The notes below the pieces were generated by a model. The model was not told the origin of the DNA. It made no database searches and saw only the letters and a list, made by a program, of their open reading frames with translations. The translations under genes and the position numbers were made by a program. Shown here one piece after another: positions 18,934 through 52,023 of a DNA stretch of 64,000 bases; the stretch's first letter is position 1, and each line of letters begins with the position of its first letter. Origin of the DNA: Pantoea sp. At-9b (GTDB lineage Bacteria; Pseudomonadota; Gammaproteobacteria; Enterobacterales; Enterobacteriaceae); the NCBI RefSeq assembly GCF_000175935.2, contig NC_014840.1:257081-321080 (forward strand), given 5' to 3'.

Positions 18934-19091
18934 GAAACTTTTCTGCTCCCTTCTGTCGCATAATATTCATTCAATATTTTTGAACTCTATCAGCAAAACC
19001 CTCAGCTTTTCCTCACCGCTCGACAGGTCTATTCTCTCTCACATCGAGGCACAACGCCTCACCGACTAAACAAACTTCTGAGGAAATGACC

Positions 19092-19301
19092 ATGAAATCT
19101 ATCAAAACTTTCGTTGCAGTTGCGGCCCTGTCACTGGTTTCTTTCGGCAGCTTTGCCCAGAGCATTACCGCTTCCGCTTCAACCCTGGACGGTGCAGAAG
19201 CCAAAATCGCCGCGCAGGCAAAACAGGCAGGTGCTTCCTACAAAATCACCGGCGCACGCGTAGACAACGGAGCTTACCTGTCAGCGGAACTGACTAAATA
19301 A
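19092..19301 (+). CDS. YhcN/BhsA-family (DUF1471) periplasmic protein, paralogue 1, copy B
   Basis: The 69-residue product is identical to that of copy A (8147-8356); the DNA differs at silent positions such as GGC/GGT before GCAGAAGCC and GGT/GGA before GCTTAC. It has the same signal peptide, GAGGAAATGACC ribosome site and upstream leader, so it should be under the same control as copy A. Confidence 0.9.
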   Translation: MKSIKTFVAVAALSLVSFGSFAQSITASASTLDGAEAKIAAQAKQAGASYKITGARVDNGAYLSAELTK

Positions 19302-19320
19302 GGTAATAATTAGCAAGATC

Positions 19321-19361
19321 ACAGTTATCGCACTAATTATCAATTATGAAACGATAACTGT
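19321..19361 (+). promoter_or_regulatory. Intercistronic stem-loop, copy B
   Basis: ACAGTTATCG and CGATAACTGT again form a perfect ten-base stem. The loop differs from copy A by one base (CAATTATG versus CAATAATG), so the stem is the conserved part. Confidence 0.6.
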
Positions 19362-19424
19362 AGTTATTATTACTTTCATCGAAGGCGCACAGCCTTCCAA
19401 CCAGACAAATTAAGGATTAAGACC

Positions 19425-19640
19425 ATGAAAACTATCAAAGCACTGTCAATCGCCGCTGTAGCCGCTCTTTCCCTGATGTCAGCAGCCAGCTTCGCGCAAA
19501 GCATCTCTGTGACCTCTTCAACGCTGGACGGTGCAGAAGCGAAAATCGCTGCACAGGCAGCCCAGCAGGGTGCACAGTACAAAATTACCGAAGCGAACAC
19601 CAATAACCGTGTTCACATGACCGCAGAACTGTACAAATAA
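19425..19640 (+). CDS. YhcN/BhsA-family (DUF1471) periplasmic protein, paralogue 2, copy B
   Basis: The 71-residue product is identical to that of copy A (8480-8695); the few base differences (for example CAG/CAA, GCG/GCA, GCT/GCC) are silent. The pattern of silent-only change implies recent duplication or gene conversion with selection on the protein. Confidence 0.9.
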   Translation: MKTIKALSIAAVAALSLMSAASFAQSISVTSSTLDGAEAKIAAQAAQQGAQYKITEANTNNRVHMTAELYK

Positions 19641-19669
19641 CGGATGGTCGTACAGGGACGTGCCGGAAG

Positions 19670-19695
19670 AGGTCGCCGCAAGGCGGCCTTTTTCG
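19670..19695 (+). terminator. Rho-independent terminator of cassette B
   Basis: AGGTCGCC (19670-19677) pairs with GGCGGCCT (19682-19689) around a GCAA loop and runs into TTTTT. Confidence 0.85.
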
Positions 19696-19936
19696 TGTTG
19701 CCTGTACGGCAGTGATGAATTTTCCCACCATCAACCTTGCCTACCCACTACTCGATCCTCGTTCAGTTTTCTCGCGGCCACCACTTACCAGGGCTGAATA
19801 CCGGTGAGATCCGTCGCTACCCTGCCTGTGCAATGAGGGCGGGTATCCGCTCAGGTTTTGAAGCCGCAGTCCTCGCTCATGGCGCATACGCGAACCCCCG
19901 CAAATCGTAAGGATCAGAGATTTTTTACGCTTTATT

Positions 19937-19967
19937 GATAATGAAATTGTAAATCACTCTCATTATT
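19937..19967. promoter_or_regulatory. Two overlapping Fur-box-like sequences
   Basis: On the plus strand GATAATGAAATTGTAAATC (19937-19955) matches 13 of 19 positions of the Fur consensus. On the minus strand AATAATGAGAGTGATTTAC (19967-19949) also matches 13 of 19. They lie about 80-110 bases before the TonB-like gene, where the operon promoter should be. The rest of the 407-base gap (19641-20047) shows no gene. Confidence 0.55.
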
Positions 19968-20047
19968 GTTAGTGTTCGTATCAAATTCTTACAACTCTTA
20001 TCTGACATAACAGATCCTGGATACAGGTCACGGGTTTTGACAGTCAT

Positions 20048-20956
20048 GTGCCAGTAAAACTCGCCAGAGGCAGATATTGGGCAGTGCATTTAGGGGCAGG
20101 GAAGGTTTTGCTGACATCTGATTATTCTGTGAAGTCGTCAGGTACGGCTGGGTTTTTGACTCAGTCGCCTTGGTTCTCGCATCGCAAAGCCCTCTCAGTT
20201 TGTTCCTCGGTTGCGGCACATCTCTTGCTTTTGGTGTTACTGGCGAGCTTCCGTAACGCACCCTTGCCGATAAAGAACGAGGCGGGTCATGCCGGTAATC
20301 AAATCTCCGTCGTAAATTTGAATCAGGCGATGTTGCCGGTTGTTGAGCCGCAGCCTTCTTTACCAGAACCGCAGGTGACGTTGCCCAAAACCGTTGTCGT
20401 CAGCAAGGCAGAGATTGTCGTTGAAAGGCAAAAGCCCGCCACGCAACATCCGCCGGTAAAAAAAGCCATGACGACAGAAAACCAACCTGTCAGGCCGCGC
20501 CCGGTGGTGAAACCCGTGTTACAGCCAGTAACCACGGATATGCAACGGCAAGCGGAACCCGCACCACAGAAAGCAATATCTGAGTCGACGACCGCCACGG
20601 TTACCTCTGGCAGTGGTGGCGATGCCGCACCGGGTGGTGAAAGCACCTCCGGCCATGCCGCGAAGGGGGCTGGCAATGCAACTACGTCCAGGGTTCGGGT
20701 GCTGAACCGTCGGGTCAATTATCCTGCCCGCGCTCGCTCAATGGGCGTAGAAGGCCGGGTGAAGGTGCAGTTCGATATCAGTGCGTCTGGAACAATAAAA
20801 AATATTCAAATTCTTGCTGAAGATCCTGCGGGTGTATTTAGCGGCGATCTGCGGCGGGATATTACACGCTGGCGCTATGACATTACTGGTGAAGTTAAAA
20901 ACCAGATTGTTACCGTTATTTATAAGTTAGATGGGCGTATTCAGGTCATAAACTGA
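20048..20956 (+). CDS. fusB: TonB-like energy-transducing protein (FusB-type)
   Basis: The protein of about 302 residues has one membrane anchor (A-L-S-V-C-S-S-V-A-A-H-L-L-L-L-V-L-L-A at about 48-66), a proline-rich periplasmic spacer (about 95-190) and a TonB C-terminal domain (V-N-Y-P-A-R-A-R-S-M-G-V-E-G-R-V at about 223-238). It would transmit proton-motive force to the receptor encoded 20 bases downstream. The start is uncertain: the frame opens with GTG at 20048, but a TTG near 20108 preceded by GGGAAGG is also possible. Dedicated TonB-like genes are a hallmark of the Fus ferredoxin-uptake operon; the symbol is by analogy. Confidence 0.75.
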   Translation: MPVKLARGRYWAVHLGAGKVLLTSDYSVKSSGTAGFLTQSPWFSHRKALSVCSSVAAHLLLLVLLASFRNAPLPIKNEAGHAGNQISVVNLNQAMLPVVEPQPSLPEPQVTLPKTVVVSKAEIVVERQKPATQHPPVKKAMTTENQPVRPRPVVKPVLQPVTTDMQRQAEPAPQKAISESTTATVTSGSGGDAAPGGESTSGHAAKGAGNATTSRVRVLNRRVNYPARARSMGVEGRVKVQFDISASGTIKNIQILAEDPAGVFSGDLRRDITRWRYDITGEVKNQIVTVIYKLDGRIQVIN

Positions 20957-20976
20957 GTTTCACTTCTGGGAAAATC

Positions 20977-23547
20977 ATGAAAATAGCAGGTTGTATTATT
21001 ATACCGCTTAGCATGTTTGCTATGCCATCGGTAGCGGAAACGCATGCCGCAATTCAGGACGTAAATACCACCACCGAAGAATCTGGCACTGAACAGCCGG
21101 AGGATTCCGGTGATACCATTATTGTTCGCTCTGCGCCAACCAGCCAGACCATGGGCACGCAGGTGATTAACGCCGAACAAATCGCGCGTTATCCGACCGG
21201 TAATGGCACCATTACCGAATTGCTGAAACACAATCCAAATGTGCGTTTTGCAAACAATACCGACTCCAGCAATAACCCGGGTGAGATTGCGCCGGAGAAT
21301 GTCTCGTTTCACGGTGAGAAGTTTTATAACAACAACTTTATGATTGACGGTCTGTCGAACAATAATACTGTCAATCCGGGCAGTAATAATGGTGATTTGA
21401 CCGCTGATCCCGATGGTTACAGCCCGACAGACCTCCCCGCAGGGGGTACGCAGTCGTTCTGGATAAACTCTGAACTGCTTGACAAGCTAGAAGTTTTTGA
21501 CAGCAATGTCTCTGCAAAATATGGTGATTTCACTGGTGGCGTAGTTGATGCACGTCTGAAAGACCCCTCCCTTGATCGTGCTTCCGGCAGAGTTTCATGG
21601 CGTACTACGCGTGACAGCTGGACGAAATATCATATTGATGAATCAAAGCGTGAAAGTTTTGAAGAGGCGACTGACCTGTCAAATCAACCAAGATTCACTA
21701 AAAATTTCTACTCGGTCAGTGTTAACCAACCTTTAAATGACAGTGCGGGTCTCATCTTCTCGTATAACAGGCAGGAATCGAAGATCCCTTTTTATAACCC
21801 CAATATGAATATGTGGACCAATCAGGAACGCATTGCCGAAACTTATTTATTGAAGGGAACATGGTTTGCGGAAAATGGGGATATTTTCCGACTGACCGGT
21901 ATGTACGCGCCACATGAATCGACTTATTACAAAAAGGAGATGATGAATGGCGGTTTTACCAATAAGGGTGGCGGCTATAGGGCAAATATTGAATGGGAAC
22001 ATTTCGCTCCTTGGGGCAAAGTGACCAGCCTTGCAGGCTATCAATACGAGCAAAACAAGATCGAGCATGCAGCAGATTCTTACCAGTTATGGTATCGCTA
22101 CAATACGAGTCGGAACTTCACGTCGGATGCAATCACCTGGGGAAGCACCGCTGCTGGCTCTAATGCGCAGTACGGTTACATCGGCGGATACGGTACGTTT
22201 GGTACCGACAAGTCCACCACCACATTAAAGCAGGACGCAGAATTTAATCCTTTCTCTGCATGGGGCATCACCCATCAACTGGACGCGGGCTGGCAGACAG
22301 ACTTTTATCAGGCGCGGTATCGCCGATTCAGTGATGTTTCCACCAGTACCGGCACCCCGACCATTGACACCAGCGTTGTTTGTACATCTGGAGATGTCTA
22401 CTGCATTGACGGTGAGCAGTATATTAAAAACCGCAGGGTGTATCCGGCACGCAGTGTTGAGGGTAACTACACCAATTACGCCCTCTACCTCCAGGACAGC
22501 ATGCTTTATAAGCGTCTTGAAATCACGCCGGGAGTTCGTCTCCAGTACGATGATTTTATGAAGAACCTGACGTTAGCTCCCCGTTTTGCTACATCGCTGG
22601 ATGTCTTCGGTGACCGTTCAACACGTCTGTTTGGCGGTGCCAACCGCTACTACGGGCAGAACCTGCTGGCCTACAAATTGCGTTCGGGGATTAGCGAGTA
22701 CATTGCTCAGACACGTACCAGCGCGAACAGTGCCTGGGTCGGAGATACGTCCAAATACAATTCATACGATTACGATATCTCCGATTTGAAAACCCCTTAC
22801 AGCGATGAACTGTCTCTGGGGCTGTCCCAGCGAGTGATGGACACCGTCTGGACCCTCAAATGGGTTAACCGTAAAGGCCGCGACCAGTTCGGCCGGGACA
22901 GCTACACCGACTCAAGTGGGCAGAAATATTACATCCTGAACAATAACGCGAAAACGGAAGGGAATACCTGGTCGCTGACAGCGCAACCTATCAGCCCGTA
23001 TCACTTTAGTGTGGCAGATATCAGTTGGGAACTGGGGGCCAGCATCGTCAGGAATAAGTCCAGCTCACAGACGTATTACGATCAGTCGGACAGTGATGAC
23101 AATATGGTCATCATTGATGGGAAGTTGATGGAAAAAGGAGACATGAAGGCGCTCGATTACAACACGCCTTGGACCGCCTTTATCAATGTGAATACCTTCT
23201 TCCCGGCGATCAATCTGAACTGGAGCCAAAACATCGGTTACACCGCGGGGTACACCGGTTATACCACCTCGTCTATTGCCTGCCCTTCGGGTAACAGTGC
23301 CTGCGGCAGTTATGAAGGCAATGCCAGCCTGTACCAGAAAACCAAATATGACGACTACTTCACCTATGACTGGCGCTTCGCCTGGTCGCAGCCCACTTTC
23401 CAGAATCAATCTGTAGAGCTGACGCTGGACGTGTTGAATGTGTTTGATACCGCTATCGAAGCCAGTCAGACCACCGGCAGCTCTGCCAAAACCGTGACCT
23501 ACAAAACCGGACGGCAGTTCTGGTTTGGTGTCGCTTATAACTGGTAA
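20977..23547 (+). CDS. fusA: TonB-dependent outer-membrane receptor (FusA-type)
   Basis: The 856-residue precursor has a signal peptide (cut near S-V-A-E-T), a TonB-box-like D-T-I-I-V-R-S-A-P at about residues 45-53, a plug domain (about 55-210, with F-M-I-D-G-L-S) and a 22-strand-type barrel ending in W-F-G-V-A-Y-N-W with the terminal aromatic. It would import a large iron substrate across the outer membrane. The following gene is an M16 protease and the next an SbmA/YddA-type ABC protein. This matches FusA of ferredoxin-importing Pectobacterium and YddB of E. coli. Substrate identity is inferred, not seen. Confidence 0.85.
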   Translation: MKIAGCIIIPLSMFAMPSVAETHAAIQDVNTTTEESGTEQPEDSGDTIIVRSAPTSQTMGTQVINAEQIARYPTGNGTITELLKHNPNVRFANNTDSSNNPGEIAPENVSFHGEKFYNNNFMIDGLSNNNTVNPGSNNGDLTADPDGYSPTDLPAGGTQSFWINSELLDKLEVFDSNVSAKYGDFTGGVVDARLKDPSLDRASGRVSWRTTRDSWTKYHIDESKRESFEEATDLSNQPRFTKNFYSVSVNQPLNDSAGLIFSYNRQESKIPFYNPNMNMWTNQERIAETYLLKGTWFAENGDIFRLTGMYAPHESTYYKKEMMNGGFTNKGGGYRANIEWEHFAPWGKVTSLAGYQYEQNKIEHAADSYQLWYRYNTSRNFTSDAITWGSTAAGSNAQYGYIGGYGTFGTDKSTTTLKQDAEFNPFSAWGITHQLDAGWQTDFYQARYRRFSDVSTSTGTPTIDTSVVCTSGDVYCIDGEQYIKNRRVYPARSVEGNYTNYALYLQDSMLYKRLEITPGVRLQYDDFMKNLTLAPRFATSLDVFGDRSTRLFGGANRYYGQNLLAYKLRSGISEYIAQTRTSANSAWVGDTSKYNSYDYDISDLKTPYSDELSLGLSQRVMDTVWTLKWVNRKGRDQFGRDSYTDSSGQKYYILNNNAKTEGNTWSLTAQPISPYHFSVADISWELGASIVRNKSSSQTYYDQSDSDDNMVIIDGKLMEKGDMKALDYNTPWTAFINVNTFFPAINLNWSQNIGYTAGYTGYTTSSIACPSGNSACGSYEGNASLYQKTKYDDYFTYDWRFAWSQPTFQNQSVELTLDVLNVFDTAIEASQTTGSSAKTVTYKTGRQFWFGVAYNW

Positions 23548-23559
23548 CCCTCCACGTTG

Positions 23560-23604
23560 CCTCCGGCGGAATGCCGGAGGATTTGTGCTGCGCGCTTGCA
23601 GCAC
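23560..23604 (+). promoter_or_regulatory. Two tandem perfect hairpins between receptor and protease genes
   Basis: CCTCCGGC-GGAAT-GCCGGAGG (23560-23580) and GTGCTGC-GCGCTT-GCAGCAC (23585-23604) fill the 78-base gap between the two coding regions. Neither has a T run. They probably protect the upstream receptor message or set a lower level for the protease and ABC genes. Confidence 0.65.
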
Positions 23605-23625
23605 CCGATCTTATAAGGAAGAAAC

Positions 23626-26397
23626 ATGTGTAAACGCAGACGTTTTGCCGGGGTTACACTCTTGCTGCTGGCCTTATCTCAGCCAGCATTGGGTGAAGAA
23701 GTGAAAACAACGCTGCCGGTTGTAACAGAAGGCGTATTGGCTAATGGGCTTCAATACACCCTGGCACCGATCAAATCCGATGCCGGACGCATTGATGTCC
23801 GACTGAGCGTGGAGGCCGGATCGCTTGATGAAACCAACGATCAGTCAGGTGTGGCGCATATGGTTGAGCATATGGTGTTTCGCGCCAGCGACGCCTGGCC
23901 GGAGGGGGTGTCGACGGCGCTTGCGCAGCAGGGGTGGTCGCGCGGTGCAAATTATAATGCGGTAACCAATTACGAACGCACCCAGTTCATGATGAGCCCG
24001 CCTGATGGGGTAAAAGGGTTAGGTTTAGCCTTACAGGCACTGGCGCAGATGACGGCGCATGCACGTATTACTCAACCTGATCTGGATGATGAACGCAAAG
24101 TCATCCTCGAAGAGTGGCGGGGAAAGCTGGGTGTTGCAGCCCGGATGAACCAGCAGCGCATTGCGGCCCTGCGTGAGGGTTCCCGCTATCCTGACCGACC
24201 GACCATCGGGCAAGTTGCATCCATTGAGCATACCCCGGCAACCACGCTGCAAGCGTTTTATCAGCGCTGGTATCACCCGGCCAATATGCGTCTCCTGATC
24301 ATCGGTGATTTCGAGCCAGAGAAAGTGAAAGCGCTGATTACCCAAAATTTTGCCGGATTACCAGCCATCACTGTTCCGTTGCGGCAGGACAGCGATTACA
24401 ACCAGCAACTGAAAAAGCAGCTGCGGGTGATCCATCTGCAGGATTCGGAAAGCGGCGGCAGTCAGGTTTCGTGGGTAAACCGCTTTGATGAAAAACAGAT
24501 GCAGGGCACCGCAGGTTATCGGGATCGGTTGATCAACCAAATCACCCTCAGCGTGCTTACCCGTCAGCTCAAACGTCAGCAAAATGCCCTGCCAGACTCG
24601 ATTGGCAACATCGTCGCGCGGAAATCTGAAACCGGCCGCTCTACCGTGGCGTTTGGACTGTTTGTTGATGTGATGCCGGGTGACTATAAGTTGGGCCTGG
24701 AAACGCTGATCCGTGAGCGCGAACGGCTGATACGTTTTGGTCTGGATGCAGACGAAGTTGCAGATGTGAAAAGTGATTTATTGGATGCGGCAACGCGTTT
24801 GGCGGGCAAACCGGAAAACCGGACGTTCACTGACTGGGTCCAGACGCTGGCGATTGCCTGGCAGCAACAACAGCCATACGTCGACTCTCAGCAGCGTGGT
24901 GTCCGTGCGCTGGCTGAGCTCAAGACCATCACCAGCGCGGATATTAACGCACGTCTGAAAAAGTGGTTACAGGCACCGGATCAAGTGGTGCAGTTCAGCG
25001 TTCCCGGACGGGTTGTCTACAGTGTGCCATTGCCTTCCGAGATTCAGCGGATGGTCACGCAAATTTCCACTGAGTCATTAACGCCTACAGTGATGGTAAA
25101 GACATCTGCTTTGGCACCCTTGCCGGATCACGATACTTCGGGTAAACGCACCTCCGTGAAAAATTACCCGGCAGAATCAGTGCAGGAGTGGCAGCTCAGT
25201 AACGGCGATCGTGTGGTCTGGATGAAAACAGCACCGGCAAAAGGCCGTCTGTGGTTCGAAGCGCAGAGTAATGCTGGCTATCTTGGTTATGGGCTGAGTG
25301 CCTGGCAGGCGCAATTAGCGACTCAATTGTTGAGGTATGGTGCCCCGACGGGTTGGAACGAAGATGACTATCGACGCTGGAAGCAGGACAAGGATCTTTC
25401 GCTGAGTGTCAGTCAGCAGGAGTACAACCTGGAGATCCTCGGAAATGCGCCTGCCAGTGAGCTCAATACACTCCTGCATGCTTATCAATTGCTGCACACT
25501 GATAATCATATCGATCCTGCTTCAATCAAAAACAGCATCCTGACGTTTGCTCGCCAACAGGTCATGCAGGACAGCTCTCTTTCTTCTCAACGTCAGAAAG
25601 AAGTGACCAATCTGCGTTACGGCAGAGCGTCGTTCGCGATGCCGGATGAAGCCCAGCTTTCGACTCTCAGCGCTGCAACGCTGGCTGAACAGTGGAAAAA
25701 AATCAGCGCTGCGCCTGTGACCTTCTTTGTGATGGCCGACCTGCCTGAAAATACGCTCCGGGAGGCGGTTGAACGCTATCTGGCAGGTATTAAACGTGGC
25801 GTTCCCTTACCCGCCGCACCGTATGTCGCGTTGCCTGGGCATCGTGAAAAAGTCAGTCAGCTAAACAGTGAACCGAAAGCTGATGTGACGTTATGGAGCT
25901 ACAGCGATGAAGTCTGGTCGCCGGAACGCGCAGTACAGGTCAGCATCGCCGAAAATCTGGTTACCCGGCATCTTAAAAAGGTACTGCGCGATGACGCCCG
26001 GGGTATCTATAACCTGAGATTTAGCACGGTGCTTAATGACAGAACTAACAGGATTGAAACCGAACTACGGTTCAGCACCTCTCCTGAGCGTGCCAGGGAG
26101 TTGGCGTTACTCGCCCGGCAGGCATTTGAACATGCTCAGAGCCAGATCAATGATCGCACCGTGAAAGAGATGAAAGCTTCATTCCGACGTTCACAAGCCT
26201 TATGGCAAACCTACGACTTTATGACTCAGCGCCGGCTGATACTCAGCTACCGCCATTTCAATAATCCAGGTTATCTCTCCCGCGTTTCATCACTGGATAA
26301 CGCCATTACCACTGACGGCGTTCGTGCGATGGCATCGCGTATCTACAACCCGAAAAATCTGGTGATTTACACGGTTCTGCCGCAAGAGAAGAAATAA
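23626..26397 (+). CDS. fusC: Periplasmic M16-family zinc protease (FusC/PqqL-type)
   Basis: The 923-residue precursor has a signal peptide (RRRFAGVTLLLLALSQPALG) and the inverted zinc motif H78-x-x-E81-H82 (A-H-M-V-E-H-M-V-F), with the third ligand at E163 in E-R-K-V-I-L-E-E-W. Two M16 half-domains are expected (about 25-480 and 520-900); only the first keeps the zinc motif, as usual. In Fus systems FusC cuts the imported ferredoxin in the periplasm to release iron; PqqL of E. coli is the same type. AAGGAAGAAAC precedes the ATG. The stop overlaps the start of the ABC gene (TAATG). Confidence 0.87.
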   Translation: MCKRRRFAGVTLLLLALSQPALGEEVKTTLPVVTEGVLANGLQYTLAPIKSDAGRIDVRLSVEAGSLDETNDQSGVAHMVEHMVFRASDAWPEGVSTALAQQGWSRGANYNAVTNYERTQFMMSPPDGVKGLGLALQALAQMTAHARITQPDLDDERKVILEEWRGKLGVAARMNQQRIAALREGSRYPDRPTIGQVASIEHTPATTLQAFYQRWYHPANMRLLIIGDFEPEKVKALITQNFAGLPAITVPLRQDSDYNQQLKKQLRVIHLQDSESGGSQVSWVNRFDEKQMQGTAGYRDRLINQITLSVLTRQLKRQQNALPDSIGNIVARKSETGRSTVAFGLFVDVMPGDYKLGLETLIRERERLIRFGLDADEVADVKSDLLDAATRLAGKPENRTFTDWVQTLAIAWQQQQPYVDSQQRGVRALAELKTITSADINARLKKWLQAPDQVVQFSVPGRVVYSVPLPSEIQRMVTQISTESLTPTVMVKTSALAPLPDHDTSGKRTSVKNYPAESVQEWQLSNGDRVVWMKTAPAKGRLWFEAQSNAGYLGYGLSAWQAQLATQLLRYGAPTGWNEDDYRRWKQDKDLSLSVSQQEYNLEILGNAPASELNTLLHAYQLLHTDNHIDPASIKNSILTFARQQVMQDSSLSSQRQKEVTNLRYGRASFAMPDEAQLSTLSAATLAEQWKKISAAPVTFFVMADLPENTLREAVERYLAGIKRGVPLPAAPYVALPGHREKVSQLNSEPKADVTLWSYSDEVWSPERAVQVSIAENLVTRHLKKVLRDDARGIYNLRFSTVLNDRTNRIETELRFSTSPERARELALLARQAFEHAQSQINDRTVKEMKASFRRSQALWQTYDFMTQRRLILSYRHFNNPGYLSRVSSLDNAITTDGVRAMASRIYNPKNLVIYTVLPQEKK

Positions 26398-28067
26398 TGA
26401 ATAAGAAACTGGCCACGGTGTGGCAACTGAGCCGGGCGTTCTGGGGCGGCAAGCAGAGCTGGAGTGCGTGGTTAATTCTGGCGGTGATCCTGGGTCTGGG
26501 GGGATCGATCGTCTGGCTGAACGTATTGATCAACGACTGGAGCAAATCCTTCTATGACGCGTTAGGAGAGTTTAATGGCTCAAAGGTCTACAGCCTGGTG
26601 AAGGAGTATTGTGTCTTCATCCTGATCTATATCGGCGTGTTCGTTTATCAGGACTGGTTTACCCGGCTGCTGATTATTCGCTGGCGTAAATCGCTGACGG
26701 CTCAGCTGGTGGACAGCTGGCTGGCGAAACAGGCTTACTATCATCTGTCCCTCACCGGAAAGGTTGATAACCCGGATCAGCGTATTGCCGAAGACATCAA
26801 CTTCTTTGTCGATAAGACTATCAGCCTGCTGGTGTCGTTCCTGATCACCAGCGCTCAGTTGTTCTCGTTTGTCTGGATTCTGTGGAAGCTGTCGGGCGTT
26901 CAGACCTTCACCCTGTTTGGACAGGAGTGGGTGATTAAAGGCTACCTGGTCTGGGTCGCGGTGCTTTACACCCTGGTGGGCAGTCTGGTGACGCACCTGA
27001 TAGGTAAGAAGTTGCATGGGCTAAACTATCAGAAACAACGGGCCGAAGCTGACTTCCGCGCAGCCTTGTTACGTAAGCACGATAACGCTGAGCAGATCGC
27101 GCTGTATCAGGGGGAATCCTGGGAGAAACAGCATCTGAATCGTGCCTTTAGCGCTATCGCACAAAACTGGCGCGCATTGATGAACGGCGAACGTAACCTG
27201 GGCTTCTTCACTACCGGTTACACCCGGATCAGCCTGATTGTACCGGTGTTTGCTGCGCTGCCATTGTTTATGGCGAAAACGATCACCCTCGGTGGTCTGA
27301 TGCAGGTGCGTTCTGCCTTTGGTCAGGTTCATGGCGCTTTGAGCTGGTTTATTCGTGTTTACAAAGCGCTGGTGGAGCTGTCGGCCAGTATCTCGCGTCT
27401 GGAGCAGTTCTGCCAGGCGATCGCGGCATGTCAGAACGGCAAGAATGCCAATCCGGCTGGCGAAATCGTCGAGGTTGATAAACTGACGGTAACCACTCCG
27501 CAAGGGAAGGCGTTGCTGTCAGATATGCAATTCCGTTTTCCCGTCGGAAGCTGGAGCAAACTTTCTGGTCGCAGCGGTATCGGCAAATCAACCTTGCTGA
27601 GAACGCTGGTCGGTGTCTGGCCCTGGTTTGAAGGCCATTGGCAGAGCCAGCAGGGCAAAAGCCTTTTGCTTCCCCAGAGGGCTTATATCGGACAGGGTAC
27701 ATTGCGTGAGGTGCTGTGCTATCCGCAGCAGCCTGACCCTGATTCGGAGAAACTGGCCCGCTATCTGGCAGATACTGGCCTTGGGGAGTGGAGTGGGGCG
27801 CTTGATAAGCAACTTAACTGGGAACAGGTTTTGTCAGGCGGTCAGAAACAGAGGCTGGCATTTGCCCGGGCATTGCGACTGAAACCAGACGTACTGTGGC
27901 TGGATGAAGCGACCAGCAGCCTGGATGCTCAGTCGGCGCGTGAGATGTTGCTACTGCTGAAAACCCGGCTGCCAGATTGTACAGTCATTGCAATAACACA
28001 CCAGACCGATATCGACGGACACTTTGGTCAGCATCTCAATCTTGATAGCGTAGCGGCAGGGAAATAG
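26397..28067 (+). CDS. fusD: SbmA/YddA-type ABC transporter, fused membrane and ATPase domains (FusD-type)
   Basis: The 556-residue protein has an N-terminal membrane domain of about six helices (about residues 20-320, ABC_membrane_2/SbmA-BacA type). Its C-terminal ATPase has Walker A G-R-S-G-I-G-K-S-T (391-399), signature L-S-G-G-Q (479-483) and Walker B V-L-W-L-D-E (499-504). It overlaps the protease gene by one base (TAATG), so translation is coupled. FusD/YddA proteins are proposed to move peptide products across the inner membrane after proteolysis; direction is not settled by sequence. A hairpin follows at 28081. Confidence 0.87.
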   Translation: MNKKLATVWQLSRAFWGGKQSWSAWLILAVILGLGGSIVWLNVLINDWSKSFYDALGEFNGSKVYSLVKEYCVFILIYIGVFVYQDWFTRLLIIRWRKSLTAQLVDSWLAKQAYYHLSLTGKVDNPDQRIAEDINFFVDKTISLLVSFLITSAQLFSFVWILWKLSGVQTFTLFGQEWVIKGYLVWVAVLYTLVGSLVTHLIGKKLHGLNYQKQRAEADFRAALLRKHDNAEQIALYQGESWEKQHLNRAFSAIAQNWRALMNGERNLGFFTTGYTRISLIVPVFAALPLFMAKTITLGGLMQVRSAFGQVHGALSWFIRVYKALVELSASISRLEQFCQAIAACQNGKNANPAGEIVEVDKLTVTTPQGKALLSDMQFRFPVGSWSKLSGRSGIGKSTLLRTLVGVWPWFEGHWQSQQGKSLLLPQRAYIGQGTLREVLCYPQQPDPDSEKLARYLADTGLGEWSGALDKQLNWEQVLSGGQKQRLAFARALRLKPDVLWLDEATSSLDAQSAREMLLLLKTRLPDCTVIAITHQTDIDGHFGQHLNLDSVAAGK

Positions 28068-28317
28068 CACTGCGTCACCGCCAGGTGGAGTGGATTAAAA
28101 CATGCTCCGCCTGGTTCGCTACCAGAAATACCAGCGCCATTCAGCAGCCTTATACGGTGGTTATACGTTTTTACTGGGTTATTCAAAAGGGTCAGGCTGC
28201 GTTAAGCCTGTGAGTTATTGAAGCAGAGTCGTGTTTGTCAGCGAAAAGATGGCACGCCATACTCAGTGCCCTCTTTGAAAGGGAACTTATGTTGTCACTG
28301 TTCACAGCTTAACATTT
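28068..28317. other. Intergenic stretch with terminator-like hairpin
   Basis: CCAGGTGGAG (28081-28090) pairs with CTCCGCCTGG (28105-28114) with one wobble, 14 bases after the ABC gene, and is probably the operon end. No gene is seen in the remaining bases before cassette C. Confidence 0.5.
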
Positions 28318-28440
28318 ATTCAGTTTTTTTGAACTCTATCAGCAAAACCCTCAGCTTTTCCTCAGCGCTCGACAGGTCTATTCTCTCTCACATCGAGGCA
28401 CAACGCCTCACCGACTAAACAAACTTCTGAGGAAATGACC

Positions 28441-28650
28441 ATGAAATCTATCAAAACTTTCGTTGCAGTTGCGGCCCTGTCACTGGTTTCTTTCGGCAGC
28501 TTTGCGCAGAGCATAACCGCTTCCGCTTCAACCCTGGACGGCGCAGAAGCCAAAATCGCCGCGCAGGCAGCCCAGCAGGGTGCACAGTACAAAATCACCG
28601 AAGCGAACACCAATAACCGTGTTCACATGACCGCAGAACTGTACAAATAA
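28441..28650 (+). CDS. Chimeric YhcN/BhsA-family (DUF1471) periplasmic protein
   Basis: The 69-residue precursor has the signal peptide and first half of paralogue 1 (MKSIKTF to E-A-K-I-A-A-Q-A) and the second half of paralogue 2 (A-Q-Q-G-A-Q-Y-K-I-T-E-A to E-L-Y-K). The join is in frame within a conserved segment, so the folded domain should be intact. It is preceded by the same leader and GAGGAAATGACC ribosome site as the other copies. Confidence 0.9.
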   Translation: MKSIKTFVAVAALSLVSFGSFAQSITASASTLDGAEAKIAAQAAQQGAQYKITEANTNNRVHMTAELYK

Positions 28651-28679
28651 CGGATGGTCGTACAGGGAAGTGCCGGAAA

Positions 28680-28703
28680 AGGTCGCCGCAAGGCGGCCTT
28701 TTT
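28680..28703 (+). terminator. Rho-independent terminator of cassette C
   Basis: AGGTCGCC-GCAA-GGCGGCCT followed by TTTTT, the same as in copy B. Confidence 0.85.
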
Positions 28704-28777
28704 CGTATTCACAGCGACTGTCTACGGGAACAGGAACACTCCACTGCCATTTTCGAGCATTAATCGCTTATGGATTT

Positions 28778-44476: not shown

Positions 44477-44983
44477 TCACGAATTATCAAAGCACACTTG
44501 CCTTTCACAACACTCATCACAACTTGGTGAACGACAAATTAATTCACCCTGTGCATGCAAACAACGCTGGCGGTAGAAAAACTTTTTCCAGCGCATGTTT
44601 TTATCATTCATCACTACCAGCTCAGGAAAGCAGTCACTCATCAGTTGCCGCAGCTCGGCTCTGGAACTCAGACCCAGATCTTCCCAAAGATGGTTAAAAG
44701 CCAGCGAGACGCTGGCAATAATACAGTGCATCGGCTCTGCGTCTGGCTGCATATATTCCGCCAGCCATAACGTCAGTTGTTGCTGCTCATCGCTGCGCGT
44801 GGCGATCAGTTCACTCATGAGTTGATGGCGCATCTGCGTATCTGCTGGAATTAACGGTTGCCGGGCTGGTAGTGGCAACTGCACCCACTGATGCGGAGAA
44901 AGTCCCATTCTCTTTGGATAACTACCGCATCCCTGAAGATAGAGAGATACCAACCGACGTAACCAGTCTTGTTGTGCCGTCAT
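44477..44983 (-). CDS. nifQ: NifQ, molybdenum donor for FeMo-co synthesis
   Basis: The 168-residue protein ends with the NifQ signature C-x4-C-x2-C-x5-C (C-R-S-P-S-C-D-E-C-C-E-R-Q-V-C), which holds an Fe-S/Mo-Fe-S cluster. NifQ supplies molybdenum in a usable form to NifEN/NifH during cofactor assembly. Its start codon overlaps the nifB stop (ATGA at 44983-44980), so it is the second gene of the nifBQ operon. The length is normal. It is the left end of the nif cluster. Confidence 0.95.
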   Translation of the reverse strand: MTAQQDWLRRLVSLYLQGCGSYPKRMGLSPHQWVQLPLPARQPLIPADTQMRHQLMSELIATRSDEQQQLTLWLAEYMQPDAEPMHCIIASVSLAFNHLWEDLGLSSRAELRQLMSDCFPELVVMNDKNMRWKKFFYRQRCLHAQGELICRSPSCDECCERQVCFDNS

Positions 44984-46383
44984 GCAACCCCCTTATTACG
45001 CAAGCTCAGGGATGTTGTCCGCGCACGATAATCCTGCCACCAGCGATCCAGGGCTTCCGTTACCGGTTGCCAGGCATCATCTACGCAAGGTTGAATACCG
45101 CGCGCTTCGAGTTTTTGCCAGGGCGTATACCCCATCCGTACACAAAAAACTGCCTTTACATCGGCCAGTAGGTCAAAAATCGCCGCCATGCGCGCTTCGC
45201 TGTCCGGTTCAGGTTCACAGCTGTCGCTGCCGTGACAGTATTTTGGCGTGAAACGCTGATTCACCAAGACCACCCCAGCCGCAGAAAGGCTGTAGATATA
45301 AAACCGCTCGGCATGACCAAAATGGTTGTCGATCACATCCCCGCGTTGCGAGGCGACAGCCACCAGGCAAGCCTCTTCCTCATCCGATTCTCCCCGGGTC
45401 GCAATGCTGGCATGCAACTTCGCCCGCTGAAACAACACAGGCAGCCAGGGTTGCGAAGCGGATTCGGGTTCCGGAATCGCGGCAAACTGCTGGCTACGAT
45501 CTTCTCCCAGCATACCAATCGCATCCGCCCGGCACTGATGACAGTGCGTCATCTGCGGGATGATCTCGCCACAGCGTTGCCTGACTGCGGCGACCATCGC
45601 CGCATCAGGTTCCGGTTGCCCGTTCAGGCCAAATACCGTGCCATGTTCGGGGCGTGCAATCAGCGGCATGATGTTATGGATAAATGCGCCACTGGTTTGC
45701 AGCAACTGGCTGACATCGGGTAATGCATGCTCGTTAATACCGGGGATCAACACCGAGTTGATTTTCACCAATACGCCTTGCGATGTCAGGCGGCGCACAC
45801 CTTCCAGTTGTCGGGCGATCAGAATTTCACCTGCTTCACGCCCGCTGTAACGCTCGCCATCCAGCCACAGCCAGGCATAAATTTGCGCCGCAATGTCGGG
45901 GTCAAGCGTGTTAATGGTGACCGTGACATGATCAACACCCAGTGCCACCAGTCGATCAGCCGCATCAGGCAGCATCAGGCCATTGGTGGAGAGGCATAAT
46001 TTCAGGTCCGGAAACGCTTCACGCACTTGTACAAGGGTGCTAAAGGTACGATGGATATTCGCCAGCGGATCGCCAGGTCCAGCGATACCCACCACCGATA
46101 ATTGTGGGATCGCGGTCGCCACTTGACGAACTTTAGCAACCGCCTGTTCAGGCGTGAGCAGGGTAGAGGAGACGCCCGGTCGCGATTCGTTACTGCAATC
46201 AAACTTGCGATTGCAGTAATTACATTGCAGGTTACAGGCAGGCGCGACCGGCAGATGCATTCGCGCGAAACGATGGTGCCCACTGCGTGAGTAACAGGGA
46301 TGTGACGCAACTTTACCCGCGACCAGATCGGTCAGCGTCTCACGGGTCGGTGCCTGGCAGGCGGTAGAGGAGCAGGAAGTCAT
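44980..46383 (-). CDS. nifB: NifB, radical-SAM FeMo-co core synthase
   Basis: The 467-residue protein has a radical SAM domain with C50-x3-C54-x2-C57 (A-C-N-L-Q-C-N-Y-C) and a C-terminal NifX/NafY-like cofactor-carrier domain (about 350-455; D-N-H-F-G-H-A-E-R-F). It makes the NifB-co precursor from two 4Fe-4S clusters and SAM. The ATG at 46383 (MTSCSSTACQ) follows AAGGTAA and gives the Klebsiella length; an upstream in-frame start at 46443 would run into the sigma-54 promoter. A GG-N10-GC promoter (46420-46435) and NifA site (46525-46540) lie upstream. Confidence 0.97.
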   Translation of the reverse strand: MTSCSSTACQAPTRETLTDLVAGKVASHPCYSRSGHHRFARMHLPVAPACNLQCNYCNRKFDCSNESRPGVSSTLLTPEQAVAKVRQVATAIPQLSVVGIAGPGDPLANIHRTFSTLVQVREAFPDLKLCLSTNGLMLPDAADRLVALGVDHVTVTINTLDPDIAAQIYAWLWLDGERYSGREAGEILIARQLEGVRRLTSQGVLVKINSVLIPGINEHALPDVSQLLQTSGAFIHNIMPLIARPEHGTVFGLNGQPEPDAAMVAAVRQRCGEIIPQMTHCHQCRADAIGMLGEDRSQQFAAIPEPESASQPWLPVLFQRAKLHASIATRGESDEEEACLVAVASQRGDVIDNHFGHAERFYIYSLSAAGVVLVNQRFTPKYCHGSDSCEPEPDSEARMAAIFDLLADVKAVFCVRMGYTPWQKLEARGIQPCVDDAWQPVTEALDRWWQDYRARTTSLSLRNKGVA

Positions 46384-46419
46384 GGCGTTACCTTGATGAT
46401 GTAGTCTTAAACTGCCTGC

Positions 46420-46435
46420 TGCAATATATGTACCG
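46420..46435 (-). promoter_or_regulatory. Sigma-54 promoter of nifBQ
   Basis: On the minus strand CGGTACATATATTGCA contains GG-N10-GC with the TTGCA -12 element. The expected transcription start is near 46409, giving a leader of about 26 bases before nifB. Confidence 0.85.
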
Positions 46436-46524
46436 TTTGCCACCTGGTTAATACGATGAAATTAAAGCACTTTATTCAGCGAGCCGCGCCAGGCTTTGTT
46501 ATATTCGCCACCTGTAGCTGACAA

Positions 46525-46540
46525 TGTGCAGATCATCACA
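46525..46540. promoter_or_regulatory. NifA upstream activator site for nifB
   Basis: TGT-GCAGATCATC-ACA matches TGT-N10-ACA exactly. Its centre is about 123 bases upstream of the predicted nifB start point, within the nifA-nifB gap just after the nifA stop. Confidence 0.85.
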
Positions 46541-46547
46541 ATGTGGA

Positions 46548-48119
46548 TCAGATGCGTGGCATGGTGATATCCATCGTCTGGATGCGATAGGCAACCTGAC
46601 GTGGTGTCATCCCCAATAAACGCGCCGCTTTGGCCTGCACCCACCCGGCTTTTTCCAGCGCAGCGATCAGCCGCTGGCGTTCATCAAGATTCTGATCAAG
46701 CCAACTGTCCTCGCGTGGTGCGCTGACCGCCAGCGGTTTCGGTACTGTTTCCCGGTGATTGAACAGGATCACCTCACGATCAATTAACCCGCTATCCGAC
46801 ATCACCGCCGAACGTTCCAGACAGTTTTCCAGTTCGCGCACATTACCCGGCCAGTTGTAACTCAGCAGCAGGCGAATTGCCCCTTCACTGATCCGCAGAG
46901 TGCGGTGCTGGTGTTGCCCGATTTTGCGTACCAGAAAGTGTGCCAGTTCAGGAATATCATCCTGCCGTTCACGCAGCGGAGGAAGAGAGACCGGCATCAC
47001 GTTCAGGCGGTAATACAGGTCTTCGCGGAAATTCCCGTTGCGTACCTCTTCCTCCAGGTTGCGGTTGGTCGCGGCGATGATCCGTACATTGACCTGAAGG
47101 GTTTCATCACCACCGACCCGTTCCATTTCTCCTTCCTGTAATATCCGCAACAATTTAGCCTGAAAAGAGGCGCTGCTTTCACCAATTTCATCAAGGAAAA
47201 GCGTGCCACCATCTGCCAGTTCAAAACGTCCTTTTCGCTGACGCACTGCCCCGGTAAACGCGCCTTTCTCATGACCAAAAAGTTCACTCTCAAGCAGGGT
47301 GTCGGGCAAAGCCGCACAGTTAAACTTCACAAAAGGGAAGGTGGACCGCGGGGAATTATGATGAATGGCGTTGGCAATTAATTCCTTACCAGTCCCACTT
47401 TCACCCCGCACCAACACCGTGGTATCCCAGCGTGAGACCTGCCGAATAATGTCCAGTGTCTGCTGCATCGCCGGGCTCTTTCCCACCATATTTTCGAAGC
47501 CGAAGTTGTGGGCAGGAACACAGTTGCGCCCCTTGGCGGCGGCTATCACTGCCGGACGTGGAACGGAAGGAAGTGGTGATGACAGCAGGCGCACCGTCTG
47601 CGCTACCAGATTGGCGACAGTTTCAAGAAAGCGGGTACAGGAGGTGAGCCGTGATTCAGCCTGCGCCATCGGTTGGGCGGCCAAAACCCCAATCGGTTTT
47701 GAGTCTGGCCCCATCAGCGGCACGGCAATGAAGGGCAGGTTGTAGTCGTACAATCCCAGGCGATCAAGGAAACGTGGGTCATCTGCCAGTCGCGGCAAAA
47801 CCAACGATTGCCCCTGAGACACCACCGTACCAACCAGCCCCTCTCCGATACGATAACGGACTTTCAGGCCATCGGTCAGTTGTTGCACGTCGGCCTCCGG
47901 TAGCGCCGCGATGGTCAGCAGGTCCTGTTGACTGTCGCTCAGGCAAATCATGCCATGCTGCATAAATGCATCATTATGCAGTACGTACAACACGTCCTGT
48001 AATGTCCGATCTCGCTCCGTCGAGCGACTCAACACCACGCTAAGGCGTTGCATCGCGGTAAACTGTTGGGACAGATCAAAACGCCAAACCCGGTTGTCGG
48101 ATTCAAATTGCTGGGTCAT
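46548..48119 (-). CDS. nifA: NifA, sigma-54-dependent activator of nif genes
   Basis: The 523-residue protein has an N-terminal GAF domain (about 20-180), an AAA+ domain and a C-terminal Fis-type helix-turn-helix ([19 protein letters not shown]). The AAA+ domain has Walker A G-E-S-G-T-G-K (239-245), the sigma-54 contact loop G-A-F-T-G-A (286-291) and Walker B L-F-L-D-E (307-311). It lacks the Cys-rich interdomain linker of oxygen-sensitive rhizobial NifA, consistent with control by NifL. It overlaps nifL by four bases (ATGA), so the two are made in matched amounts. Confidence 0.97.
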
Positions 48120-49600
48120 TTGGCACCTCCGGTCAGTGAGGCAAATAACGGGAAACGCAAGGTCAGGCAGGACCCACCTTCAGGCGGAGAAGTGAGCTCA
48201 ATCGCCCCACGATGATGGGCGACCAGAGTCTGAATCAGCCGCAGCTCCATCCCTTTACCCGGGGCGTTTAATGCATCAGCGCTATGGTTGTAGCGCACAT
48301 GCTTCAGCGGGACGTTGTCGCATAAGTAAAATGCCAGCCAGCCCTCTTCTTCGTGGGCATACAACTGCGTTTCCAGCACGAAATTCGGCACTTCAGCGGC
48401 CAGATCTAAAGTGCGATCCAGCCATAAACTGAGACAGGCGAGTACCTGTGTTCGCTGGCCGAAACACACCAGCTCAGGGGCACCCTGAGTCACCTGCAAG
48501 CTTCCCCCTGGCTGGTAACGCGTGTGATAAAGGGCGCGCAGGTCGGCAAAAAAATCCCTAAGAGGCCACATGGTCGCTGGCTCAAGATCCAGAGAAGGGC
48601 GACAGCGTTGCAGACGCGCCATCGCTTCTTCACCTTCATGCCAGGCCGAATTGAGCGCTACATTGCTGTTGTCACCATTTAAACGACGAGCAGCTGCTAA
48701 CATATTGATGGGGCAATTCAGCTGAATTAATGCGGCATCAAGGGAATCACGGATCGCCGCCAGCAATTTACCGGTGGTCATATGTTGTTTGAGTCGATCG
48801 AGCCGCCCCTGTTCCTGCTGTTGCTGCTGCTGGGTGTGATCGGTGATCACCACCAGCGTTCGGGCGAGGCCGTTATCAATAAAATAACGGCTGACTTCCT
48901 CGCTGACACCCGGCAGGGTCCAGCACGTCACCCGGAGCCAGCGCACAGTGCCACACAGCACCACCGGAGTCACTGCTCCCTCGGCAAACGCCTTTTTCCG
49001 CGCAGAAAAATCCAGTTCAGTCAGCAACTCTTTGCCACCACAATCGGCGCATAATGTCTTATAAGTCAGGTTATCCATAATCACCTGATCCTGTTCGTCC
49101 ACCACGACGACAGCGGCTGGAATATTATTCAGCACGGCTTCGGTTAACGTCATTTGATTGCGCAGGCGTTGTTCCAGCGCATAGCCCGTGCTGATATCAC
49201 GCTGCATCGCCAGATAATGTTCCAGCTCCCCACAGGCATTGACGACCGGGGTGATATCAATTTCCACTAAAAACAAGCTTCCATCGCGACGGCGGTTAAT
49301 CAATTGCCCACGCCAGGGTTGCCGCAGATGCAGGCAACGCCACATATCCTCATAAATTATCCGTGGGGTTTGTTTACTGGCCAGCAGCCGTGGGTTTTGT
49401 TGCAACAGCTCTTCCAGCGGATAGCCCGTCTGACGGCAGAACGCCGGATTGGCGTAAATGATACGGGCCTCAGCATCCGTTAGTGAGATAGCAACAGGTG
49501 CCTCTTCAACAATGGTCAGAAACAGCCCGGGATGTTGCTGAGAAAGCCCTCGTGCAATGGCTTGCGGTTCAGCGGCATCCATCATCATATTCTCAGTCAT
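48116..49600 (-). CDS. nifL: NifL, redox/nitrogen-sensing anti-activator
   Basis: The 494-residue protein has an FAD-binding PAS domain (about 25-140; [10 protein letters not shown]) and a second PAS region (about 155-270). A C-terminal histidine-kinase-like part ([12 protein letters not shown] and G-G-S-C-L-T-L-R-F) lacks a usual phospho-His box. It binds and inactivates NifA under oxygen or fixed nitrogen. The Q-rich T-Q-Q-Q-Q-Q-Q-E-Q linker is typical. I chose ATG at 49600 over GTG at 49603 because GGAGG spacing is better. Confidence 0.96.
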
Positions 49601-49627
49601 CACATCCTCCGGAACTCAGGTTATTTG

Positions 49628-49643
49628 TGTCGCAGTTATGACA
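49628..49643. promoter_or_regulatory. NifA site between nifL and nifF
   Basis: TGT-CGCAGTTATG-ACA matches TGT-N10-ACA. It lies just upstream of the nifL start codon, between the nifL promoter and gene, and about 271 bases upstream of the nifF start point. A distant upstream site for nifF near nifL is also known in Klebsiella, so it most likely serves nifF. Confidence 0.7.
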
Positions 49644-49697
49644 ATTTGTGCCACCTGTCGACATTTGCCGCAGCGGTGGCGACCTGTCGAATAACCA

Positions 49698-49713
49698 TGC
49701 AAACACTAAGCCT
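49698..49713 (-). promoter_or_regulatory. Sigma-54 promoter of nifLA
   Basis: On the minus strand AGGCTTAGTGTTTGCA has GG-N10-GC with a perfect TTGCA. The expected start is near 49687, 87 bases before nifL. In related bacteria this promoter is activated by NtrC~P. Confidence 0.8.
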
Positions 49714-49833
49714 TAAGCGGTAGCAACTCGCCCTAACCTTGATCCAGATCGGTTTTAGCCGCACATCCCTCATGAAATTGCCAAAAAAGCTTCCTGCCGC
49801 GACAGAAAGCGCGCCTGAGATGCGTCTCAGCTG

Positions 49834-49869
49834 GTGCGTGACGGTGCAAAATTGTGCAACGTTTGTGCA
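49834..49869. promoter_or_regulatory. Helically phased GTGC repeats, candidate NtrC region
   Basis: GTGC occurs at 49834, 49844, 49854 and 49865, that is every 10-11 bases, the last three as GTGCA. GTGC/GCAC is the NtrC half-site core. The array is centred about 150-180 bases upstream of the predicted nifL start, where NtrC enhancers are expected. A CTGAGA-TGCG-TCTCAG inverted repeat lies beside it (49815-49830). Confidence 0.45.
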
Positions 49870-49880
49870 GCCAGGATAGC

Positions 49881-49896
49881 TGGCACAGCATTCGCA
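49881..49896 (+). promoter_or_regulatory. Sigma-54 promoter of nifF
   Basis: TGGCACAGCATTCGCA has the consensus -24 element TGGCAC and GG-N10-GC spacing; the -12 element TCGCA differs by one base. The start point is expected near 49907, 32 bases before the nifF ATG. Confidence 0.85.
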
Positions 49897-49938
49897 ACAG
49901 TAAAGAGGACCGATTCTTTTATTTCACAGGAGCGCGAC

Positions 49939-50469
49939 ATGGCGAACGTTGGTATTTTTTTTGGCACTGATACGGGTAAAACCCGCAAGATCGCTAAGAT
50001 GATCCACAAAAAGCTGGGAGAAGCGGCAGATACGCCGGTGAATATCAATCGCATCTCTCTTGAAACTTTCCTTTCGTACCCGGTATTGGTACTCGGCACG
50101 CCAACGCTTGGTGATGGACAATTGCCGGGAATCGATGCGGGCTGTGAAGAAGCATCGTGGGGAGAGTTTATGGCACAGCTTGATGGGGCAAGTCTGAACG
50201 GTAAAACCGTTGCGTTGTTCGGTCTGGGCGATCAAAAAGGCTACCCCGATAATTTTGTCAGTGGCATGCGCCCGCTGTATGACGCACTAAAAAACTGTGG
50301 CGCACAAATCATCGGGCAATGGCCCAATCAGGGGTATGAGTTCACTACTTCAGCGTCGCTGGAACAGGGCGATTTTGTCGGATTGGTGCTGGATCAGGAC
50401 AATCAGTATGACCTCACTGAGGAGCGACTTGACGCCTGGCTGGAGAGCATCAGACCGGTAATTATGTAG
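49939..50469 (+). CDS. nifF: NifF, flavodoxin electron donor to nitrogenase
   Basis: The 176-residue long-chain flavodoxin has the FMN phosphate loop G-T-D-T-G-K-T (residues 9-15) and the FMN-binding segments T-P-T-L-G-D-G (about 53-59) and F-G-L-G-D-Q-K-G-Y (about 93-101). It carries low-potential electrons, from NifJ in Klebsiella, to NifH. The ATG at 49939 follows CAGGAG and gives the known family length. It is the only plus-strand nif gene, divergent from nifLA and ended by a strong terminator. Confidence 0.96.
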   Translation: MANVGIFFGTDTGKTRKIAKMIHKKLGEAADTPVNINRISLETFLSYPVLVLGTPTLGDGQLPGIDAGCEEASWGEFMAQLDGASLNGKTVALFGLGDQKGYPDNFVSGMRPLYDALKNCGAQIIGQWPNQGYEFTTSASLEQGDFVGLVLDQDNQYDLTEERLDAWLESIRPVIM

Positions 50470-50502
50470 CCAGACCGTGCAATAAATCTCCACGTAGCCC
50501 TG

Positions 50503-50535
50503 AAGCCATTATCCTCTGCGATAATGGCTTTTTTT
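50503..50535. terminator. Bidirectional terminator between nifF and nifM
   Basis: AAGCCATTATC (50503-50513) and GATAATGGCTT (50520-50530) form a perfect eleven-base stem followed by TTTTT. It separates the convergent nifF and nifUSVWZM transcripts. Confidence 0.92.
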
Positions 50536-50539
50536 GTCG

Positions 50540-51325: not shown

Positions 51326-51330
51326 GACGA

Positions 51331-52022: not shown

Positions 52023-52023
52023 A

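Follow-up and report, generated by a model that had tools for sequence, protein, structure and literature searches.

Work on the ferredoxin uptake (Fus) system has mostly concerned its use by soft-rot pathogens for iron piracy. In Pectobacterium its four genes (named in PMC5095587) are arranged in the order fusBACD (PMC6963963). There, the receptor FusA binds ferredoxin, the TonB-like protein FusB opens the receptor's plug and imports the ferredoxin using the proton motive force, the protease FusC cuts it and releases its cluster (PMC7593965, PMC13253070, PMC6071955), and FusD is a putative ATP-binding cassette (ABC) transporter (PMC7593965). The YddB-PqqL-YddA system of E. coli, with its receptor, M16 protease and SbmA-type ABC protein, is of the same general kind. 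Here, we analyze a 64-kb stretch of DNA from Pantoea sp. At-9b (the window), which is the terminal 64 kb of contig C4 (321,080 bp) in a genome of 6.31 Mb and 6 contigs. We conclude that it carries a complete fusBACD operon, very probably with plant ferredoxin as its cargo, on the large nitrogen-fixation (nif) plasmid of this Pantoea relative. The Fus machine is already known, and FusA in Pantoea was mentioned in a 2016 paper (PMC5095587); the point of interest is the setting on a nif plasmid. A fus operon on such a plasmid did not figure in the titles and abstracts of the literature searched, a coverage mostly outside the subscription journals.

Four plus-strand genes stand head to tail between positions 20048 and 28067, in the known Fus order and with the expected Pfam domains (Table 1). 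A first-pass annotation of this DNA had proposed a complete Fus-type operon of adjacent genes for a TonB-like protein, a receptor, an M16 protease with an intact HxxEH motif and an SbmA-type ABC protein, the last two coupled in translation. All of this is borne out by gene content, order, sequence and fold matches and the receptor tree, and the stop codon of fusC overlaps the start of fusD in TAATG. What this analysis observed directly is the content and order of the genes, their homologies and folds, and the catalytic motif. The start of fusB is probably TTG 20108 (giving 283 amino acids) instead of the GTG at 20048, since the corresponding open frame in the relative G029 begins a few codons ahead of the same TTG and GGGAAGG precedes this codon in both genomes.

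Table 1. Features of the fus region and the nif cluster, numbered from the first base of the window
Feature	Position	Strand	Basis or remark
Repeat with two YdgH/BhsA/McbA-like genes, directly upstream of the operon	18958..19699	+	two copies that precede fus in G029 are about 93% identical to it
Promoter-region footprint with overlapping Fur-like hexamers	19934..19987	+	54 nt invariant in the window, G029 and AS-PWVM4
fusB (TonB-like energiser, RRVNYP motif)	20108..20956 (listed open frame from GTG 20048)	+	PF03544 (TonB_C)
fusA (TonB-dependent ferredoxin receptor, 856 aa)	20977..23547	+	Plug domain, 4zgv match, tree
GC-rich hairpin between the fusA stop and fusC	23560..23580	+	9 pairs, 7 of them GC
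fusC (periplasmic M16 protease, 923 aa)	23626..26397	+	Peptidase_M16 and M16_C; HxxEH at residues 78-82
fusD (SbmA/ABCD-type ABC protein with fused ATPase, 556 aa)	26397..28067	+	PF06472 (ABC_membrane_2), PF05992 (SbmA_BacA), PF00005 (ABC_tran)
Single-gene hybrid copy of the DUF1471 repeat, directly downstream of the operon	28307..28709	+	92% and 87% identical to two stretches of the repeat upstream
nif cluster (nifB, A, L, S, N, E, K, D and H named)	44980..63759	-	continues as a nifJ-type gene at the opposite contig end

The Pectobacterium structures used for comparison were 4zgv for FusA, 6b03, 6b05 and 6brs for FusC, and 7zc8 and 9hi3 for the FusB domain. The window's receptor matches 4zgv over its length with 1168 bits (E 0) and 61% identity, and YddB with 288 bits; besides these two, no other solved sequence scored better than E 1. 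The E. coli set is far more distant by sequence than the Pectobacterium one. The predicted FusA model, built from 15 sequences, is of low confidence (mean predicted local distance difference test score, pLDDT, of 62). The fold search placed 4zgv first (template modelling score, TM, 0.79/0.83) and YddB after it (0.67/0.75), which agrees with the sequence result and adds little to it. The protease gave 955 bits and 49% identity over the whole length of 6b03, against 176 bits for PqqL, and its predicted model is good (mean pLDDT 88.8). The first-pass annotation had named a protease whose predicted structure lacked the PqqL/FusC-type cavity as grounds for dropping its reading; the nearest folds are in fact the FusC-ferredoxin crystal structures 6b05 and 6b03 (TM 0.84/0.86). 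Fold alone suggests a two-half M16 protease, and the sequence says FusC. Five of the seven ferredoxin-contact positions that PMC6071955 lists for FusC are kept (R180, R332, R798, Y298 and A428). The closest solved relative of FusD is 6tqe, with 257 bits.

The C-terminal domain of FusB, compared by sequence with solved structures, has 7zc8 and 9hi3 as its top relatives, the latter a TonB-ferredoxin fusion; we identify both with the FusB structures from PMC13253070. Where a generic TonB motif would stand, the domain carries the RRxxYP motif defined in that paper, and 26 of the 27 FusB rows compared, the window's included, retain the double arginine. In Pectobacterium, R242 is critical to ferredoxin binding, and the pair R241-D322 was proposed in 2026 as a molecular switch (PMC13253070). 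The receptor shows the corresponding feature: the TonB-box aspartate D46 is invariant in 15 receptors and aligns with chain position 54 of 4zgv, and the published partner of R241 is the FusA aspartate numbered D53 (PMC13253070). The window protein ends in RIQVIN, unlike the HI(R/Q)VDD of the Pectobacterium rows, and the R241-D322 pair is not present as such; judging from these residues, the published switch cannot operate here in the same form. Counted by eye, position 322 is D in 9 rows, N in 16 (the window among them), K in 1 and S in 1. According to PMC13253070, hardly any FusB outside Pectobacterium and Samsonia has D322. Since it is conserved only there, its absence does not exclude membership in the Fus family.

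A quick tree of 36 receptors places the window's FusA with those of G029, Pantoea sp. AS-PWVM4 and two further database sequences. The name P. phytobeneficialis for G029 is deduced from its FusA, which shares length and opening residues with the database protein P0002. Next come Klebsiella indica and K. variicola, Enterobacter, Kluyvera and Siccibacter, and the whole lies inside enterobacterial FusA with SH-aLRT branch support of 99-100. The closest receptors outside Pantoea (K. indica and K. variicola, Enterobacter sp. BIGb0383, Kluyvera ascorbata and Siccibacter colletis) are 69-76% identical to the window's. K. indica, Enterobacter, Kluyvera and Siccibacter have the same four fus genes; K. 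variicola entered by its receptor alone. In the comparison of loci, which covered 80 of 153 confirmed fus loci, the order fusBACD is kept in Pantoea, Klebsiella indica, Cedecea, Enterobacter, Kluyvera, Siccibacter, Erwinia, Dickeya, Pectobacterium, Brenneria and Samsonia. Among 35 relatives of the same genus, FusA occurs in 1 (G029, 85% identical), and weak receptor matches alone in 3 others. The operon DNA of G029 is 79.7% identical to the window's over 8.2 kb. That of G029 and AS-PWVM4 is 97.5% identical over 8.8 kb, and these two were therefore counted as one lineage.

Two observations on receptors elsewhere belong here. At three Pectobacterium loci (L052, L053 and L054, from P. brasiliense, P. 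carotovorum and P. fontis) the receptor is just 43-44% identical to the window's FusA, FusC (49%) and FusD (61-63%) show the values seen elsewhere in Pectobacterium, and no FusB match was found at E 1e-8; the receptor appears to have been swapped within the operon. At G743:C4:24197-26716 a FusA homologue, 65% identical, is broken by one in-frame TAG.

The substrate, the steps of import and the control by Fur are carried over from the Pectobacterium system by analogy. At the cell surface, FusA would bind a small [2Fe-2S] ferredoxin of plant type, and FusB, powered by a chromosome-encoded ExbB/ExbD motor, would pull first the plug of FusA and then the ferredoxin into the periplasm. There FusC would cleave it and free its iron. 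FusD would probably move a breakdown product across the inner membrane, the nature of this product being a guess, and Fur would probably repress the operon at plentiful iron. The motor is probably available, since a search for ExbD found two genes on the 4.37-Mb contig C1.

How firmly can a ferredoxin cargo be read from this locus? Several facts weigh against it. By fold alone the FusC model is also near 9ldy, an M16 protease of Porphyromonas (TM 0.78/0.79), and it resembles the first half of PqqL (6oft, 0.84-0.85 by target), with only 0.46 for the whole PqqL chain. Two FusC contact positions are altered (R796 to N, M392 to L), and R180, R332 and other retained positions recur in some distant M16 proteases with no assigned substrate. 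Tatumella and Acinetobacter loci have no fusD beside fusC, so that fusD is evidently not needed in all relatives. In FusB, H317, R319, D321 and D322 of Pectobacterium are replaced by R, Q, I and N. Of the 117 FusA docking residues listed in PMC5095587, only 45 (38%, multiple alignment) or 49 (42%, pairwise) are identical to those of 4zgv, from P. atrosepticum; these figures assume that the published numbering equals the 4zgv chain position, and with a shift of +1 the pairwise count becomes 38 instead of 49 of 117. Lastly, the function of the Pantoea proteins in ferredoxin import and growth is a prediction from sequence and analogy.

Some of these facts would suit a protein-import operon of the same design with a different small cargo, such as a bacterial or algal ferredoxin or another metalloprotein. 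The pocket is the most diverged part of the receptor (38% in the multiple alignment, against 64% outside it), the altered H317 and R319 are residues that touch ferredoxin in Pectobacterium, and the part of PMC6793856 on YddB and PqqL identifies no cargo for them. The first-pass annotation had likewise judged the receptor so divergent that another protein could be its substrate. The argument is weak, because pocket identity to 4zgv in the other FusA rows is 32-73% within Pectobacterium itself and 39% and 41% in two Dickeya (the row of Klebsiella sp. BIGb0407, a 580-amino-acid piece of open frame, was disregarded and omitted from the tree). As a test of the substrate the pocket residues are uninformative and were set aside; they neither support nor exclude plant ferredoxin. 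Against another cargo stand the retained FusB double arginine and FusA TonB-box aspartate. The carriers of close fus relatives, moreover, belong largely to plant- or insect-associated genera, and we consider such a cargo improbable. An ordinary siderophore receptor with a protease as chance neighbour has nothing in its favour but the common fold of TonB-dependent receptors, and its probability is close to nil. Siderophore receptors score TM 0.55 or less against the model, normalised by model length and among the best 50 listed, compared with 0.79 for FusA, and the four-gene order is kept across many genera. The clustering with siderophore receptors that the first-pass annotation had named as decisive against itself does not occur: YddB and the siderophore receptors were compared by score and fold, outside the tree, and score, gene order, tree and fold search together rule this reading out. 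A Fus operon importing plant ferredoxin is by a wide measure the most probable account.

The control of the operon can be approached through the invariant footprint upstream of fusB. In the 8.3-kb alignment with G029 only two stretches of unbroken identity are longer, the DNA elsewhere being about 79% identical. The first-pass annotation had seen two Fur-like boxes here. An overlapping array does lie within the footprint, with matches at 6-base steps (19937-19955, 19943-19961 and 19949-19967) of 13, 13 and 12 of 19 positions to the Fur consensus; individually these boxes are weak. A single match of 13/19 is common by chance, being reached by 211 of 2000 random 600-base stretches of the window (about 1 in 10), and this counts against reading much into any one of them. 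Among 26 other fus loci, 14 have a match of 14-16/19 in the 600 bases that surround the fusB open-frame start; the background is 76 in 2000 and reflects the composition of this window, some of the 26 genomes being richer in AT. A scan for sigma-70 promoters found no promoter-like match within the footprint. The arrangement of sites suggests that the operon is likely under Fur control, with repression when iron is plentiful.

A second regulatory candidate is the hairpin that follows fusA. In 37 of the 54 fus loci, that of the window among them, the 80 nt past the fusA stop fold at z < -2, as against 4/54 and 5/54 in two coding controls and 67/218 at other gene junctions of the same loci, a control that may still contain a few fusA junctions where the coordinates of a locus are unusual. 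The comparison with these junctions gives a Fisher p of 6e-7, a value that is too small because the loci are related. Two close relatives, Klebsiella indica (z 0.22) and Siccibacter (z -0.07), are without a fold there, and G029 is borderline (-1.96). The hairpin is often kept in position, with a stem sequence that varies between groups, and it may set the level of the receptor above that of the protease. At its gathering threshold Rfam gave nothing, and the word "hairpin" is absent from the main texts of PMC6071955 and PMC7593965. The 54-nt footprint, this hairpin in many fus operons and the natural N at FusB position 322 are new details of the system.

Unlike the Pectobacterium operon, that of the window shares its replicon with nitrogenase. 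The contig opens with a plus-strand gene for a pyruvate:ferredoxin (flavodoxin) oxidoreductase, nifJ by type (L108:71-3580), and since nifJ diverges from nifH across the contig ends, the contig is probably a circular 321-kb plasmid. The first-pass annotation had placed the operon beside the nif cluster. The two are indeed on the same contig, with 16.9 kb between the end of fusD and nifB and, in this interval, an AraC regulator, a major facilitator superfamily transporter, an autotransporter, genes without assigned function and an AbiE-type pair. A conserved fus-nif neighbourhood is ruled out by the relatives. On the 290.6-kb contig of G029, 151 kb (136 kb in the opposite direction) separate fusA, at 57.8-60.4 kb, from nifH, at 211.3 kb, and in AS-PWVM4 the two loci are more than 100 kb apart on a single 257.5-kb contig. 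The link to nitrogenase is therefore one of co-residence on a replicon, without conserved closeness.

At a broader scale the two traits occur together more often than expected, by counts that all ignore kinship. Among 392 genomes of the family, FusA above 1000 bits was found in 19, nifH in 34 and both in 7, against 1.65 expected (Fisher p 4.7e-4; without the window's own genome 6/391, p 0.002). At the level of genera both occur in 4 of 154 against 1.01 expected (p 0.01; own genus excluded, 3/153, p 0.04). With four weaker FusA matches (44-48%) added to the family sample, 9 of 23 are shared with nif. The same two-by-two count among the 35 relatives within the genus, own genome excluded, gave p 0.086. 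It is on the family sample that the association rests, not on the order-wide one, where 394 genomes hold 8 with FusA, 29 with nifH and 2 with both, including the genome of the window. Among named genomes with FusA, 25 were searched and nifH was present in 5 (AS-PWVM4, K. indica, D. undicola, P. peruviense and B. roseae); it is absent from the Enterobacter, Kluyvera and Siccibacter genomes tested.

The first-pass annotation had connected the operon to the iron and Fe-S demand of a diazotroph. In its fullest form this would make fus and nif an adaptive package, in which a pirated Fe-S source serves nitrogenase, an idea that adds to the explanation by ferredoxin uptake and does not replace it. 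The shared contig in the window, G029 and AS-PWVM4 and the excess of joint occurrence in the family and among genera speak for it. So does divergence from G029 at four-fold sites, where identity is 54-58% for fusB, fusC and fusD, 40% for fusA and 60-73% for six nif genes (60-65% for nifS, nifN and nifE), which suggests that fus and nif are of roughly similar age on the plasmid lineage; joint transfer is not proven thereby. Against it, the distance of 17 kb seen here is not kept in G029 and AS-PWVM4, despite the near-identical fus DNA of those two, and two nif-bearing relatives of the same genus (G006 and G033) have no FusA. Only 2 of the 8 order-wide fus genomes and 5 of the 25 named ones bear nif, and elsewhere the loci are separated by millions of bases within one contig (G160, G679 and G739) or occupy different contigs (G507, G524 and G703). 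The control suggested is of Fur type rather than NifA type, no search for NifA sites having been made. A shared plant lifestyle, finally, explains the co-occurrence equally well and more simply. Of the proposed link, co-residence and family-level co-occurrence stand, with closeness not conserved and statistics blind to ancestry, and an adaptive package seems to us unlikely.

A 733-bp repeat with two genes of YdgH/BhsA/McbA-like (DUF1471) type is present at positions 8023-8757 as well as directly upstream of the operon, which, with the downstream part copy, is flanked on both sides. Two copies stand upstream of fus in L013, a 98% copy is at C1:962280-963009, and weaker single-gene copies occur on C1, C2, C3 and C5. 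Between the window and G029 the repeats are about 93% identical and the operon 80%; this smaller divergence of the repeats points to their recent spread or to gene conversion. The operon could be excised by recombination between the copies on either side. An empty site was looked for with the downstream DNA in 40 relatives: 14 matched and, own genome aside, the matches were partial at 64-77% identity, none of them a clear fus-less site. A search of the plasmid collection yielded 51 records, none of them covering more than 80% of the query; in the 20 listed, coverage is 5-6% and falls on the DUF1471 repeats.

A gene for 165 amino acids without a Pfam match (18391-18888) closely precedes the repeat and fus; its homologue at L119:176-766, 91.5% identical in DNA, lies on the G029 contig at a distance of about 16 kb from nifH. 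This part of the plasmid has been rearranged, since the gene adjoins fus here and sits near nifH there. A 1071-amino-acid autotransporter with Ig-like and cadherin-like domains is encoded at 31100-34315, and DNA resembling its C-terminal end is also found downstream of fus on the G029 contig (86% over 259 bases). A 673-amino-acid DUF4034 protein (38555-40576) falls in a stretch of lower G+C (43-45%), and an AbiEi/AbiEii-type toxin-antitoxin pair (42707-44153) lies between fus and nif. A search of G000, G029 and AS-PWVM4 for a pectocin-like ferredoxin-bacteriocin gave 23 Fer2 matches in open frames of 92-533 amino acids, none resembling the 268-271 of pectocin, as judged on length alone.

The complete and probably iron-controlled fus operons on Pantoea nif plasmids, together with that of the nifH-bearing K. 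indica, suggest that plant-associated diazotrophs, too, take iron from host ferredoxin. The natural variants of FusB could serve as a test of whether the R241-D322 switch is general. It is an unlikely proposal that Pantoea nif plasmids united fus and nitrogenase because the iron of chloroplast-type ferredoxin feeds nitrogenase in planta, and that a FusB with N at the switch position uses a release step different from that proposed for Pectobacterium. If this were true, Fus would be a nutritional trait of beneficial diazotrophs, beyond its role as a weapon of the soft rots.

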